A stretch of DNA of 64,000 bases, from positions 38,559 to 102,558 of the forward strand of contig JAHZJB010000064.1 of assembly GCA_022601135.1 (NCBI GenBank), in the 5' to 3' direction. Position numbers and translations under genes: made by a program. Numbering within the stretch: the stretch's first letter is position 1; the number at the start of each line of letters is the position of its first letter. This DNA is from Actinomycetes bacterium. Lineage in GTDB: Bacteria > Actinomycetota > Actinomycetes > Mycobacteriales > Mycobacteriaceae. Below are positions 17,916 to 50,803 of this stretch, piece after piece. The notes under the pieces were generated by a model. It saw only the letters and a list, made by a program, of their open reading frames with translations. It was not told the DNA's origin and made no database searches.

Positions 17916-17934
17916 TAAGGATAACCTCACCTAA
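17916..17934. promoter_or_regulatory. IdeR-type iron box before the Fe3+ ABC operon
   Basis: TAAGGATAACCTCACCTAA matches the palindromic mycobacterial iron box TTAGGTTAGSCTAACCTAA at 15 of 19 positions by my count. It lies 72 bases before the lipoprotein ATG, in the divergent region shared with the DUF21 operon. IdeR with Fe2+ would repress here and release the importer under iron shortage. Confidence 0.7.
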
Positions 17935-18006
17935 TGGTAGGTTGGGCGCCAGATCGATCAGGCGGCACCCGGCCGAGGTCGGTTCACCGGAAGGGGTTTC
18001 CACGCA

Positions 18007-19059
18007 ATGTCCGTATCGAGGTCCGTATCGAGGTCCGTATCGAGGTCACGGGTGGCCGGCGTGGTCGGAGCAGTCGCGACAATGCTGGCTCTGAACGCCT
18101 GCGGATCAGGGACCGGTACCGAGGCCGCCGACCAGATCGTCGTGTACTCGGGCCGCAGCGAAGCCCTGGTCGGGCCTCTGATCAAACAGTTCACCGCCGA
18201 CACCGGCATCGAGGTCGAGGCTCGGTACGCCGGTTCGGGCGAGTTGGCCGCCCAACTCGTCGCCGAGGGGGACAAGTCGCCCGCCGACGTGTTCCTGTCT
18301 CAAGACGCAGGCGCGCTGGGCGCGGTGTCCAAGGCTGGACTGCTGGCTCCTGTCGACACCGCGACGTTGCAGGCGGTCCCCAAGGCGTACTCGGCGGCCG
18401 ACGGCACCTGGGTCGGCGTATCCGGTCGCGCCCGGGTAGTGGTCTACAACCCGACCCTGGCGCCCAATCCGCCCGACACGATCGACGGCCTACTGGCCCC
18501 CGAGTGGAAGAACAAGATTGGTTTTGCCCCCAGCAATGCCTCCTGGCAGGCCTTTGTGACCGGGCTGCGCGTCATCCGCGGCGAGGACGGCGCCGAGCAG
18601 TGGTTGCGTGCGTTCAAGGCTCAGAATCCGCGGGCTTTCGAGAACAACGTGGCGGTCCGCGATGCCGTCGACTCCGGCCAGATCGCGCTCGGCCTGGTCA
18701 ATCACTACTACCTTTACGAATTGATCCACACCAAAGGCGCCGACGCAGTCGCCGCGAAGAACCAATTCATGGCCCCGGGGGATCCAGGCGGACTAATCAA
18801 CGTCGCCGGCGTCGGGATACTGAAGTCGGCACCGAATCCCGAAGGGGCACAAGCATTTGCTGCGTATCTGGTAGGCGAATCCGCCCAGAAGTACTTCGCC
18901 GGGGAGACGTCGGAATATCCACTGTTGGCGGGCATCGCCACCTCGCCCGAAATGCCGCCGTTGAGCGATCTCCAGCCGCCCGAGGTGGACCTCTCGCAGC
19001 TCGACGACATCGAGGCGACGCAGGAACTGCTCGTCGAGACCGGCTTGCTGACCAACTGA
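18007..19059 (+). CDS. Fe3+ ABC transporter substrate-binding lipoprotein
   Basis: 350 residues. The N-terminus has a SVSR unit three times, then a hydrophobic core and lipobox LNAC with Cys32 as lipid anchor. The mature protein begins with the ferric-binding family pattern IVVYSGRSEALVGPLIKQF, then ADVFLSQDAGALGAV, and carries the paired tyrosines of NHYYLYEL (Tyr234-Tyr235) that coordinate Fe3+ in FbpA/FutA proteins. This and the two-half permease mark it as an iron importer rather than ModA, although modA lies in the same chromosomal neighbourhood in M. tuberculosis. An iron box precedes it. Confidence 0.88.
   Translation: MSVSRSVSRSVSRSRVAGVVGAVATMLALNACGSGTGTEAADQIVVYSGRSEALVGPLIKQFTADTGIEVEARYAGSGELAAQLVAEGDKSPADVFLSQDAGALGAVSKAGLLAPVDTATLQAVPKAYSAADGTWVGVSGRARVVVYNPTLAPNPPDTIDGLLAPEWKNKIGFAPSNASWQAFVTGLRVIRGEDGAEQWLRAFKAQNPRAFENNVAVRDAVDSGQIALGLVNHYYLYELIHTKGADAVAAKNQFMAPGDPGGLINVAGVGILKSAPNPEGAQAFAAYLVGESAQKYFAGETSEYPLLAGIATSPEMPPLSDLQPPEVDLSQLDDIEATQELLVETGLLTN
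18009..18044 (+). repeat. Three perfect 12-bp tandem repeats in the signal-peptide code
   Basis: GTCCGTATCGAG is repeated three times without mismatch, immediately after the ATG, each adding the four residues SVSR to the lipoprotein N-terminus. Confidence 0.95.
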
Positions 19060-19069
19060 CGGGGTTGCG

Positions 19070-20600
19070 GTGAGCACCGGTCGCAGCCGCCCGCCGGTAC
19101 TGCTGCTGATACCGGCGGTGCTGGTGGCGACGGGCACCCTGATCCCGCTCGGCTACCTGGCAGGTCGAGCGCTGCAGCGCGGCTGGCCTTTCGTCGTCGA
19201 GGAACTGATTCAACCGCGCACCGCGGCCCTGGTGGGCCGGTCGCTGCTGCTGGTGGTCACGGTCACCGCAGCATGTGTGGTGCTCGGTGTGGGCATGGCC
19301 GTGCTTGTCAGTCGCACAGACCTCACGGCCCGACGTGCACTGGCGGTGGCACTCACGCTGCCGTTGGCCATGCCGAGCTATCTTCTGGCCTATCTGTGGG
19401 TGTCCCGCTATCCCACAGTCGCCGGATTCTGGGGTGCCTGCCTGGTGCTGACCCTGGTCAGCTATCCCCTGGTCATGCTGACCACGATGGCGGCGCTGGC
19501 CCGGGCCGATTCGGCTCAGGAGGAGGTGGCGCGATCATTGGGCCTCGGCGGGTTCGCCGTGCTGTTCCGGGTCACCCTGCGCCAGGCACGCGCCGCGATC
19601 GCGGCGGGCGCCCTGCTGGTCGCTTTGTATGTGCTCAGCGACTTCGGCGCGGTGGCGGCGATGCGGTTCGAGGCGTTCACCTGGGTGATCTACGGGGCGT
19701 ACCGCTCAGGTTTCAACCCGGCGCGGGCAGCGGTTCTTTCGCTGGTGCTGATGGTGTTCGCCGTGGTCCTGGTGATCGCCGAAGGCCGCGCCCGAGGACT
19801 GGCAGCCTCGACTCGGGTCGGCAGCGGCTCCCCACGACCGGCCCCGTTGAACCGTCTCGGATGGTGGAACGGGGTCGCGCTCCTGCTTCCGGCTGCCGTC
19901 CTCATCGCCGCGATCGTGGTGCCCGGCGCAGCGCTCGCGGACTGGCTGCTGACCGCCGGCCCTCGGTGGAACGCCGCGGAATGGGTTGGGGCACTCGGCT
20001 CCACACTGTGGCTTTCGGTCGCCGCGGCGCTGGCCGCGACGGCAGCAGCCTTACCGCTCGGCGTGCTCGCCGCTCGCTACCGCGATCGTGCGACGCGGAC
20101 CCTGGAGGGCGCAAGCTATGTGGCGCACGGACTTCCGCCGATCGTCATCGCGATCTCGATGGTGTCACTCGGCGTTCTGTTGCTGCGTCCGATCTACCAG
20201 CGCGAGCCACTGCTGATCCTGGCCTATACGGTTCTGTTCGTGCCGTTGGCAATCGGATCGATCCGTACGGCGGTCGAGGCTGCGCCGATTCGGTTGGAGG
20301 AGGTGGCCCGCTCCCTCGGCCGGCCGCCACTGCGGGCTTTCAGCACGGTGACCGCGCGGGGGGCGCTGCCCGGGATCGCGGCCGGAGCAGCACTGGTGCT
20401 GTTGACCTGCATGAAGGAGTTGCCGGTCACCCTGCTGCTACATCCCAACGGCACCGACACCTTGGCCACGCGTCTATGGAGCTACAGCTCGGTAAGCGAC
20501 TACGCGGCGGCAGCACCGTACGCGGCGGCACTGCTGCTGTTCGCGGCCGTCCCGACCGCGGTGCTGGGCATGTGGAGTACGGGCGCGGTGAGGGTTCGGG

Positions 20601-20608
<8 letters not shown>
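19070..20608 (+). CDS. Fe3+ ABC transporter permease, fused two-half
   Basis: 512 residues from GTG 19070, 10 bases after the lipoprotein stop. Twelve or so membrane segments arranged as two homologous halves, each with a permease EAA loop: ARSLGLGGFAVLFRVTL in the first and ARSLGRPPLRAFSTVTARG in the second. Such doubled permeases are typical of FbpB/SfuB iron importers; ModB would be about half this length. Second gene of the operon. Confidence 0.88.
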
Positions 20609-23096
<2,488 letters not shown>

Positions 23097-27286: not shown

Positions 27287-27703
27287 TCAGCGGCTGCCCG
27301 TACCGCCAGCGGTTGGGTTGTTTCTTTCGGCGTTCTCGAGGTCAGCCAGCGCACGGCGTAGCGCAGCTGCCTCGTCGTAGCCAACCCGCTCGACGAAATG
27401 CACCAACGCAGCTTCCCGGCTGCCGGAATCGGCGGCCTGGTCGAGAGCATCGACCATCAACCCGGCAACCAGTTCATCCCTGCCGTAGGCAGGGGCGTAA
27501 CGATGCGCTCGATCGTCGCGGTGCTGGACGACCAGATTCTTCTTCGCCAACCGCTGCAGCACGGTCATGATCGTCGTGTAGGCAAGGTCGCGGTGGACCG
27601 AAAGGACTTCGTGCACCTGACGGACGGTTTGCGGCCCGTCCGCAGACCAGAGATGGTCCATGACGGAGCGCTCCAACTCGCCGAGCCGCGTCACCTTGGC
27701 CAT
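27287..27703 (-). CDS. blaI: BlaI-family winged-helix repressor (Rv1846c-like)
   Basis: 138 residues. LGELERSVMDHLW opens the winged helix; LAYTTIMTVLQRLAKKNLV is the recognition region and DRAHRYAP the wing. The C-terminal part dimerises. BlaI represses its own operon and other genes until cleaved on cell-wall stress. A direct repeat TACTAC-5-TACTAC at 27739-27755 just upstream is a possible operator. Confidence 0.9.
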   Translation of the reverse strand: MAKVTRLGELERSVMDHLWSADGPQTVRQVHEVLSVHRDLAYTTIMTVLQRLAKKNLVVQHRDDRAHRYAPAYGRDELVAGLMVDALDQAADSGSREAALVHFVERVGYDEAAALRRALADLENAERNNPTAGGTGSR

Positions 27704-27732: not shown

Positions 27733-27897
27733 CTAGCCTACTACGGGATTACTACCGTCGGTCGTATCGCGTTCCGCGCCCATCGGTCTCAGCCGCGGCG
27801 GTGGGCCGCTGATGTCGACATCGTCGTTCTCTCCGACCTGGTCGCCGGAGCCCGGTGCGGCGAACTCCTGAGCGGCACTCCCTGGGGTTCCCTGCAT
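27733..27897 (-). CDS. Possible 54-residue small protein upstream of blaI
   Basis: ATG at 27895-27897, stop TAG at 27733-27735, 29 bases before the blaI start. The product is acidic and proline-rich (SGDQVGENDDVDISGPPP) with no membrane helix. Third-position GC (about 70 percent by my count) is below that of clear genes here, so coding is uncertain. Its 5' end lies directly against an iron-box-like sequence, so it could be iron-regulated and cotranscribed with blaI. Confidence 0.25.
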   Translation of the reverse strand: MQGTPGSAAQEFAAPGSGDQVGENDDVDISGPPPRLRPMGAERDTTDGSNPVVG

Positions 27898-27913
27898 AGT
27901 AAGCCTTGCCTAA
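27895..27913. promoter_or_regulatory. Weak iron-box-like site
   Basis: CATAGTAAGCCTTGCCTAA matches the IdeR box at about 12 of 19 positions, good only in the right half. The 10-mer GCCTTGCCTA recurs exactly 100 bases downstream inside the better box at 27995-28013. Confidence 0.3.
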
Positions 27914-27966
27914 TACATTGGGCAAAGTTGAACAGGCGGATACATTGGGCAAAGTTGGACAGGCGG
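27913..27966. repeat. 27-bp tandem duplication between two iron boxes
   Basis: Two adjacent 27-base units (27913-27939 and 27940-27966), 26 of 27 bases identical, each starting ATACATTGGGCAAAGTTG. Not coding. Confidence 0.95.
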
Positions 27967-27986
27967 CCGGGCGGTTCCCGGAAAGC

Positions 27987-28016
27987 TTGCAAATTTAGGG
28001 CAGCCTTGCCTACTAT
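27987..28016 (+). promoter_or_regulatory. Iron-box-controlled promoter of the MrsI-like RNA
   Basis: -35 TTGCAA (27987-27992) and -10 TACTAT (28011-28016) are 18 bases apart. The spacer and -10 contain TTAGGGCAGCCTTGCCTAC (27995-28013), which matches the IdeR box at 14 of 19 positions and is itself palindromic. IdeR-Fe2+ bound here would block the promoter. Confidence 0.65.
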
Positions 28017-28022
28017 CTCGGT

Positions 28023-28150
28023 GGTCTTCGAGGGCAGCATTCCTGAATCTCGAAAGCCGCCGGACCGCCCCGGGGTCCTGAGGGCTGCAGAGACCCCCGG
28101 TCCGCAACCAGGACGGGCCCCACGCAACGCGTGGGGCCCGTCCGACTTCC
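28023..28150 (+). ncRNA. mrsI: Candidate MrsI iron-starvation sRNA
   Basis: About 120-130 nt RNA predicted from the promoter ending at 28016. It has a first stem-loop (CGGACCG 28061-28067 and GGGGTC 28072-28077 paired with GACCCC 28092-28097 and CGGTCCG 28098-28104, with a four-C bulge) and ends in a perfect 15-bp hairpin at 28111-28143. In M. tuberculosis the iron-sparing sRNA MrsI (ncRv11846) is encoded in the same Rv1846c-Rv1847 gap, is IdeR-repressed and lowers bfrA expression. Position, iron box and structure agree. The exact 5' end and the pairing seed are not visible to me; both ends are estimates. Confidence 0.65.
28111..28143 (+). terminator. 15-bp hairpin ending the sRNA
   Basis: GGACGGGCCCCACGC (28111-28125) pairs perfectly with 28129-28143 around a 3-base loop AAC. 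No T-run follows. It lies 67 bases before the next GTG start, so it should insulate the thioesterase and urease genes from the iron promoter. Confidence 0.75.
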
Positions 28151-28210
28151 CCCCACGGCCCCCGCGACCCCCACTCGAATGCCCATCCGCCGTGGGTGTA
28201 GACACGACCG

Positions 28211-28615
28211 GTGACCACTGACCTCCCCGAAGGCCTCGGCGTCGGATTCGACCGAGAGCTCGGTCTGACCTACCTCGAGATGACCCCCGACGGCGGCCGC
28301 GCGGAGCTGCCGATTACCGAAAAACTGCTGCAGCCGTACGGCATCGTGCACGGTGGCGTGTACTGCGCGATCGTCGAGAGCCTGGCCAGCGTCTCGGGGG
28401 CGGTGTGGCTGAAAGCCAACGGCGGGGGCAAGGTCGTCGGGGTCAACAACAGCACCGACTTTCTGCGCGCAGTCGGGTCCGGCATGGTGACCGCCGCGTC
28501 TTCTCCGATCCACCGCGGACGCCGTCAGCAGCTCTGGCTGATCACCATCACCGACGCCGACGGCCGCCTCGTGGCACGCGGCCAGGTCCGGCTGCAGAAC
28601 CTGCCGACCGGGTAG
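28211..28615 (+). CDS. PaaI-type hotdog thioesterase (Rv1847-like)
   Basis: 134 residues from GTG 28211. Hotdog-fold signature YGIVHGGVYCAIVESLAS with the conserved HGG, followed by VGVNNSTDFLRAVGSG. It should cleave an acyl- or aryl-CoA thioester. It comes just before ureA, as Rv1847 does, but nothing links it to urea metabolism. Confidence 0.87.
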   Translation: MTTDLPEGLGVGFDRELGLTYLEMTPDGGRAELPITEKLLQPYGIVHGGVYCAIVESLASVSGAVWLKANGGGKVVGVNNSTDFLRAVGSGMVTAASSPIHRGRRQQLWLITITDADGRLVARGQVRLQNLPTG

Positions 28616-29355: not shown

Positions 29356-31068
<1,713 letters not shown>

Positions 31069-50086: not shown

Positions 50087-50105
50087 TTAGCTCAGTCTAA
50101 CCTTA
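50087..50105. promoter_or_regulatory. IdeR-type iron box between the bfd operon and bfr
   Basis: TTAGCTCAGTCTAACCTTA matches the IdeR consensus at 15 of 19 positions. It overlaps an AT-rich -10-like TAATTAT of the minus-strand operon, which starts 36 bases away; an adjoining CTTAGCCTAGG core may be a second half-site. Repression of the bfd operon by iron-loaded IdeR is expected. M. tuberculosis bfrA is also known to have tandem iron boxes and to be activated. Confidence 0.7.
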
Positions 50106-50261: not shown

Positions 50262-50323
50262 ATCGCACACAGCTCGTGCGGAGAACGCGTGCAATCACTT
50301 CATCAAGGTGTCGAGGAGTAACA

Positions 50324-50803
50324 ATGCAAGGCGATCCGGAGGTTCTGAAGCTGCTCAACGAGCAGTTGACGAGCGAACTCACGGCGATCAATCAGTATTT
50401 CCTGCATTCCAAAATGCAGGAGAGCTGGGGCTTCACCGAATTGGCGGGGCACACGCGCAAAGAATCCCTTGAAGAAATGGTTCACGCCGAGGAAATCACC
50501 GATCGCATCCTTCTTCTCGACGGTCTGCCCAACTATCAGCGGCTGTTCTCCCTGCGGGTCGGCCAGACGCTGCGCGAACAGTTCGAGGCAGACCTCGCGA
50601 TCGAATACGAGGTCGTCGCACGCCTCAAGCCCGGTGTCATCATGTGCCGCGAGAAGGGCGACGCCACCTCGGCGAAGCTTCTCGAGAAGATCCTGGCCGA
50701 CGAGGAGTTGCACATCGACTACCTCGAAACTCAGCTCGAGCTGATGGGCAAGCTCGGCGATGAACTGTACGCAGCCCAGTGCGTGTCCCGCCCGCCCCAA
50801 TAG
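50324..50803 (+). CDS. bfrA: Bacterioferritin
   Basis: 159 residues from ATG 50324 after GAGGAG. Haem-ligating Met52 in EEMVHAEE identifies bacterioferritin rather than ferritin; ferroxidase residues Glu18, Glu51, His54, Glu93, Glu126 and His129 are all present. Forms a 24-mer that oxidises and stores iron. Divergent from the bfd operon, with an iron box between them; a likely target of the MrsI-like RNA at 28 kb. Confidence 0.96.
   Translation: MQGDPEVLKLLNEQLTSELTAINQYFLHSKMQESWGFTELAGHTRKESLEEMVHAEEITDRILLLDGLPNYQRLFSLRVGQTLREQFEADLAIEYEVVARLKPGVIMCREKGDATSAKLLEKILADEELHIDYLETQLELMGKLGDELYAAQCVSRPPQ

Follow-up and report, generated by a model that had tools for sequence, protein, structure and literature searches.

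MrsI (ncRv11846) of M. tuberculosis, for which positions 2096766-2096867 are reported, is one of the few mycobacterial small RNAs with a reported job. As described in two reviews (PMC8628891, PMC11188477), it is a highly structured transcript of about 100 nt which lies between blaI and Rv1847, possesses an IdeR box, a short seed and a 7-nt loop, and has bfrA, fprA and hypF as targets; its induction by iron starvation is stated there and in a further paper (PMC7029489). RyhB is named as the counterpart of MrsI in PMC8628891, and PMC9410917 describes IsrR, an iron-sparing small RNA of S. aureus.

The locus considered here is situated in the window, that is, the whole stretch of 64,000 nucleotides that was analysed, and its position, promoter, loop, structure and terminator make it a predicted MrsI-type gene (Table 1). 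It very probably gives rise to a conserved structured RNA, predicted to be induced in the absence of iron and to spare iron by base-pairing with the mRNAs of iron proteins. The preliminary description of this DNA had already proposed an MrsI-like RNA, lying in the same gap as MrsI of M. tuberculosis, and both proposals agree with the reviews, which place MrsI between blaI and Rv1847: the iron box, size class, loop, seed and terminator correspond as well as the position. The putative gene occupies the gap between blaI and a thioesterase gene, and the predicted RNA is read from the same strand as the latter, as in the case of the MrsI position (blaI/Rv1847-type thioesterase). The range of 27895 to 28150 at first assigned to it holds only in part: the block conserved in the alignment with relatives extends only from about 27985 to 28144, and promoter and predicted RNA together span 27987-28143 (+), but positions 27895-27984 align to no relative.

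Table 1. Features of the predicted MrsI-type locus and of the bfrA region in the window (window positions)
Feature	Position	Strand	Remark
blaI	27287..27703	-	upstream, divergent neighbour; Pfam Penicillinase_R
-35 element TTGCAA	27987..27992	+	read from sequence; within block conserved in aligned relatives
IdeR/DtxR-type iron box (predicted)	27995..28013		inside promoter; 14/19 to consensus
-10 element TACTAT	28011..28016	+	read from sequence
5' bulged stem-loop	28020..28061	+	variable region; fold prediction
Predicted MrsI-family RNA	28023..28145	+	start inferred from -10 element, end from terminator stem
Core hairpin	28062..28103	+	fold and covariation
Apical loop AGGGCUG, 7 nt	28081..28087	+	seed GGGCUG at 28082-28087
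Terminator stem, 15 bp, 3-nt loop	28111..28143	+	exact arms 28111-28125 and 28129-28143
Hotdog (4HBT) thioesterase	28211..28615	+	downstream neighbour; Pfam 4HBT
IdeR-type box upstream of bfrA (predicted)	50087..50105		15/19
CAGCTC, one-wobble seed complement	50270..50275	+	5' region of bfrA
bfrA-like bacterioferritin	50324..50803	+	expected target; Pfam Ferritin

Just 5' of the promoter, a 27-bp unit is present in two head-to-tail copies (27913-27966, 96% alike), which were not seen in the aligned relatives. A promoter-like arrangement on the minus strand (TTGCCC, spacing 18, TACTAT; 27925-27896) stands beside a half box that repeats part of the iron box of the sRNA; we considered it and took it as a chance occurrence. 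This half box lies outside the 15 best box scores of the window, and about nine chance matches scoring at least 12 are expected per window. In several relatives a frame of about 260 aa (681-1466, +, in L003), for which the Pfam search gave no match, is found between blaI and the RNA; the window does not contain it.

The promoter initially claimed, TTGCAA and TACTAT separated by 18 bases, is present at 27987-28016, and a stricter sigma-70 scan listed no promoter at the sRNA locus. The iron box claimed within it, TTAGGGCAGCCTTGCCTAC, matches what we take to be the IdeR consensus at 14 of 19 positions on the better strand and at 13 on the other. Since the best scores obtained in 40 random 64-kb sequences were 12-14, such a box is borderline on the evidence of the window alone; the case for it is strengthened by its conservation, a box of at least 13/19 being found within 150 nt upstream of the loop in 59 of the 60 MrsI loci (at least 14 in 58). 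A box-like stretch also precedes the loop in those loci of the named genomes that could be read, and is degenerate in a few of them (e.g. L209 and L246). Elsewhere in the window, another IdeR-type box (17916-17934, 15/19) is located upstream of three consecutive frames (window 17916-21698, +, with the box) for a binding protein (18007-19059), a permease (19070-20608) and an ATPase (20601-21698); judged by eye, these frames (18007-21698, +) are read as a putative FbpABC-like iron transporter.

The predicted RNA would be about 120 nt long. Positions 28017-28152 fold at -81.5 kcal/mol (z -5.67), and none of 200 shuffled sequences folded equally well. The bulged stem-loop announced in the preliminary description is found at the 5' end of this fold, in a variable region which measures 69 nt in the window versus a median of 43 nt in 29 relatives, i.e. 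26 nt more. The perfect 15-bp terminator hairpin was correctly recognized as regards its exact arms, but no T-run follows the stem (CGACTTCCCC), so that a scan for T-tailed terminators finds none here.

A BLAST search with positions 27890-28215 covered 61 genomes, of which one is the window's own, 36 belong to the genus and 24 to the order. It matched 31 of them, the window's own among them and the other 30 all from the genus, and what aligned was the promoter box, the core and the terminator; GAGGGCTGC is invariant in all 30 aligned loci. From 29 of these 30 loci (L011, whose terminator is not conserved, was dropped) we built a covariance model. It matches 259 of 297 genomes of the genus (248 of 275 among the better genomes), with an E value of 2.6e-11 at the window copy, which belongs to the model's own sequences. 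Among 397 genomes drawn from the order the model matches 63, made up of 37 out of 42 members of the genus and 26 out of 38 members of other genera in the same family. The remaining 317 (314 of them counted as other families by sort order) gave no match, and one genus of small genomes (g27) has 0 of 9. As the model was built on the genus and the filters of the large scans were strict, distant copies may escape. A pattern scan of named genomes matched at least 117 stretches, and the matches listed include Mycobacterium and its segregates, Nocardia, Gordonia, Rhodococcus, Rhodococcoides, Prescottella, Williamsia and Lolliginicoccus, together with one unplaced actinomycete. Two copies appear to be decaying: in G098 (L176; 3.3-Mb genome), which counts among the MrsI-less genomes, the box and the loop are still present but the terminator has decayed, and in G146 (L114) the box contains three additional bases and the terminator stem is missing.

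The family is strongly supported by the covariation in a 39-sequence alignment, which combines 14 of the 30 Mycobacterium loci, two of four later ones and 23 of the 26 loci from outside the genus (L111, which is short, and the near-duplicates L097 and L102 were left out). In these 39 copies 97.9% of the cells pair, and 18 of the 23 pairs display compensatory changes on both sides: 15 form the terminator stem, all of whose pairs are included, two belong to the outer core helix and one to the 3-bp stem closing the loop, where U-A, C-G and A-U are all encountered. The covariation score amounts to 0.489; shuffled alignments give 0.197, none of 500 reaching the observed value, and sliding the structure gives no more than 0.107. 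The seed GGGCUG is fixed in all 39 sequences; frozen inside a pairing that is maintained, the loop thus has the look of a trans-acting seed. The same alignment weighs on two other readings of the locus. A short unannotated protein gene might be invoked, as open frames span the stretch (e.g. 97 codons at 27928-28221), but the spacing between box and loop ranges from 31 to 75 nt in 60 loci and the conserved changes are those of paired bases and not of codons, which makes this hypothesis scarcely credible. The other would see in the locus a 6C (B11) RNA or simply a strong transcription terminator. No Rfam 15 family attains its gathering score at the sRNA locus, so routine annotation would miss an MrsI-type gene, and the best match below threshold is precisely 6C (RF01066), with 24 bits where the gathering score is 47. 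The locus has an iron-box promoter of its own, its frozen loop is a different one and, besides the terminator, its core helix covaries; we regard this second reading as highly improbable. The sole Rfam match of the window that attains its gathering score, RF02514 (5_ureB_sRNA; 82.3 bits, 29509-29804, -), lies within ureC and most likely reflects urease coding similarity.

If the locus encodes an MrsI-type RNA, bfrA is the expected target, and the bfr gene was indeed found at the distance of 22 kb previously claimed. We searched 75 MrsI-bearing and 22 MrsI-less genomes of the genus, five of each being dropped for want of a clear bfrA; additional copies of bfrA were disregarded, as were two genomes from outside the genus. 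Of the 70 MrsI-bearing genomes, 53 have the seed complement CAGCCC within 80 nt upstream of bfrA, 13 of them more than once; of the 17 MrsI-less genomes, four of which are drafts of 80-93% completeness in which the RNA may have been missed, none has it there. The GC content of the two sets is equal (0.62 each); CAGCCC is the most frequent 6-mer before bfrA, followed by TAGGAG (36) and TAGATT (33), and when similar regions are collapsed the proportions become 25 of 38 and 0 of 7. The Fisher value of 4.7e-9 overstates the association, as p-values do here because the MrsI-less genomes have few independent origins. Among the genomes without an exact site, the one-wobble form is found in 9 of 17 MrsI-bearing ones versus 2 of 17 MrsI-less ones. 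In MrsI-less G092 a CAGCCC occurs at -114, beyond the 80-nt limit and upstream of the likely start; in G162, also MrsI-less, the sRNA segment is gone. Outside the genus, 30 genomes (24 MrsI-bearing) comprised four with a strong bfrA match, five with a weak ferritin match and 21 without a match, and two of six bfrA genes there have the CAGCCC site. The site thus tracks the RNA across genomes, and that genomes lacking the RNA also lack CAGCCC ahead of bfrA provides independent evolutionary support for seed pairing. The proposed link with bfr is accordingly supported in the genus, but weakly in the window, where bfrA has only the one-wobble CAGCTC. A pairing search against the bfr of the window, envisaged in the preliminary description, came out unfavourably: bfrA ranks only 28th by duplex energy among 32 start regions, which were set by hand. 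We consider the predicted link with bfrA to be well founded at the level of the genus and only plausible for the window's own species.

Outside the genus, all 26 loci (L088-L113, RNA from 2501 on) have the thioesterase gene downstream of the RNA, and it was found at 28 of 30 Mycobacterium loci, an association that would suit a cis-acting leader, or attenuator, in which iron would set read-through past the hairpin into the gene. Yet a complete terminator stem separates the two, a TAGACA motif just 5' of the thioesterase may be its own promoter, and in twelve MrsI-less genomes, eleven of them in the bfrA set, blaI and the thioesterase are direct neighbours and neither loop nor box is present. 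Because genomes without the RNA still keep the thioesterase, a leader role is unlikely, and we give it only a slight chance; a frozen loop in a covarying stem, whose complement accompanies bfrA only where the RNA is present, fits instead the trans-acting RNA that we favour.

Might such an RNA act beyond bfrA? CAGCCC followed by a ribosome site (AGGAG) and ATG occurs at 88 places in five relatives. The reversed pattern gives 49, but serves poorly as a control since gene starts favour the forward order; a shifted control hexamer, whose extra non-C letter lowers its rate, gives 40. The genome of the window has four such places and four reversed ones, the five relatives 14-22 each. A scan of 22 genomes with an 8-mer (CAGCCCTC, ribosome site, ATG) gave 33 sites versus 27 reversed ones, without overall excess, bfrA accounting for five of the 33. 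The groups that recur in at least two of six genomes are catalase, SufB and a SepH-like gene (four each), bfrA (three), and ferredoxin, R2-like, Rieske oxygenase and an NADH-dehydrogenase-like flavoprotein (two each); iron proteins thus represent six of the eight recurrent groups, and the control hexamer produced one, a short-chain dehydrogenase. Among the ORFs of 60 aa or more that follow the sites, iron proteins make up 19 of 73, versus 2 of 29 controls (one-sided p 0.024), where 19 of 73 can only be an underestimate since Pfam was run on all 29 control ORFs but on 20 of the 73. These 73 ORFs derive from 90 of the 92 places (two bfrA places were left out), three being from the window's genome; 15 of the 19 were identified by Pfam, bfrA (L412) by sequence and three SufB by grouping with L389, and two expected P450s (L503, L533), which gave no Pfam match, were left uncounted. 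Counted by gene group, the proportions are 10 of 58 and 2 of 28, an excess that is suggestive only. The catalase sites sit in 5' regions that differ between genomes; the SufB sites (at least that of L389) fall in the end of an upstream reading frame, and their conservation may therefore be due to coding. CAGCCC is placed directly 5' of the ribosome site of the SepH-like gene (Pfam DUF3071 in L405) in L405, L487, L522 and L530, the window's genome included. SepH, which is no iron protein, recurs as frequently as catalase, and it is possible that the SepH-like gene is a non-iron target or a chance occurrence. The catalase, SufB, ferredoxin, Rieske and R2-like genes are predicted candidate targets, and for the first four of these the sites lend themselves to direct testing.

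The model we propose for this locus is as follows. In the presence of iron, IdeR would occupy the box inside the promoter and block transcription. In its absence, the RNA of about 120 nt would be synthesized, ending at the 28111-28143 hairpin, and its exposed AGGGCUG loop would use GGGCUG to base-pair with CAGCCC, or with one-wobble forms of it, in the 5' regions of mRNAs. This pairing would lower the mRNAs of dispensable iron proteins, that of bfrA first, an effect which is reported for MrsI and which we infer here; in the window's species, the pairing site of bfrA would be the weaker CAGCUC.

Could this RNA be an old and general iron-sparing regulator of the mycolic-acid lineage as a whole, i.e. 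Mycobacterium, Nocardia, Rhodococcus, Gordonia, Williamsia and Lolliginicoccus, with an invariant loop, IdeR/DtxR control and bfrA, catalase, SufB, ferredoxins, Rieske oxygenases and R2-like proteins as targets, the bfrA site being lost where the RNA is lost? We regard the odds of this broad view as evenly balanced. Searches of the open literature listed no work on MrsI in bacteria other than mycobacteria. What is new in this study is the occurrence of the family beyond Mycobacterium and the fact that the RNA and its target site are lost together; the range is wider, and the picture of the targets sharper, than what we found in print. Furthermore, the model and the frozen loop make MrsI-type genes findable in hundreds of genomes and several genera.

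In conclusion, the closest known system is MrsI of M. tuberculosis and M. smegmatis, with which, as far as the descriptions in the reviews allow the comparison, the locus shares the gap between blaI and an Rv1847-type thioesterase, the iron box in the promoter, the 7-nt apical loop, the short seed, the terminator hairpin and bfrA as the expected target of the family. It differs from MrsI by a predicted length of about 120 nt, versus the 100 nt or so given in these descriptions, by a longer 5' stem-loop and by a one-wobble bfrA site. With the 6C RNA (B11) it has in common GC-rich hairpins, the last of which ends the RNA, and it differs from it by its loop and promoter. The likeness to RyhB of E. 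coli and IsrR of S. aureus is one of idea only, and homology is not claimed: an RNA made in the absence of iron lowers iron-using proteins. RyhB and IsrR are controlled via Fur, whereas the RNA described here would be governed by a predicted IdeR/DtxR box.
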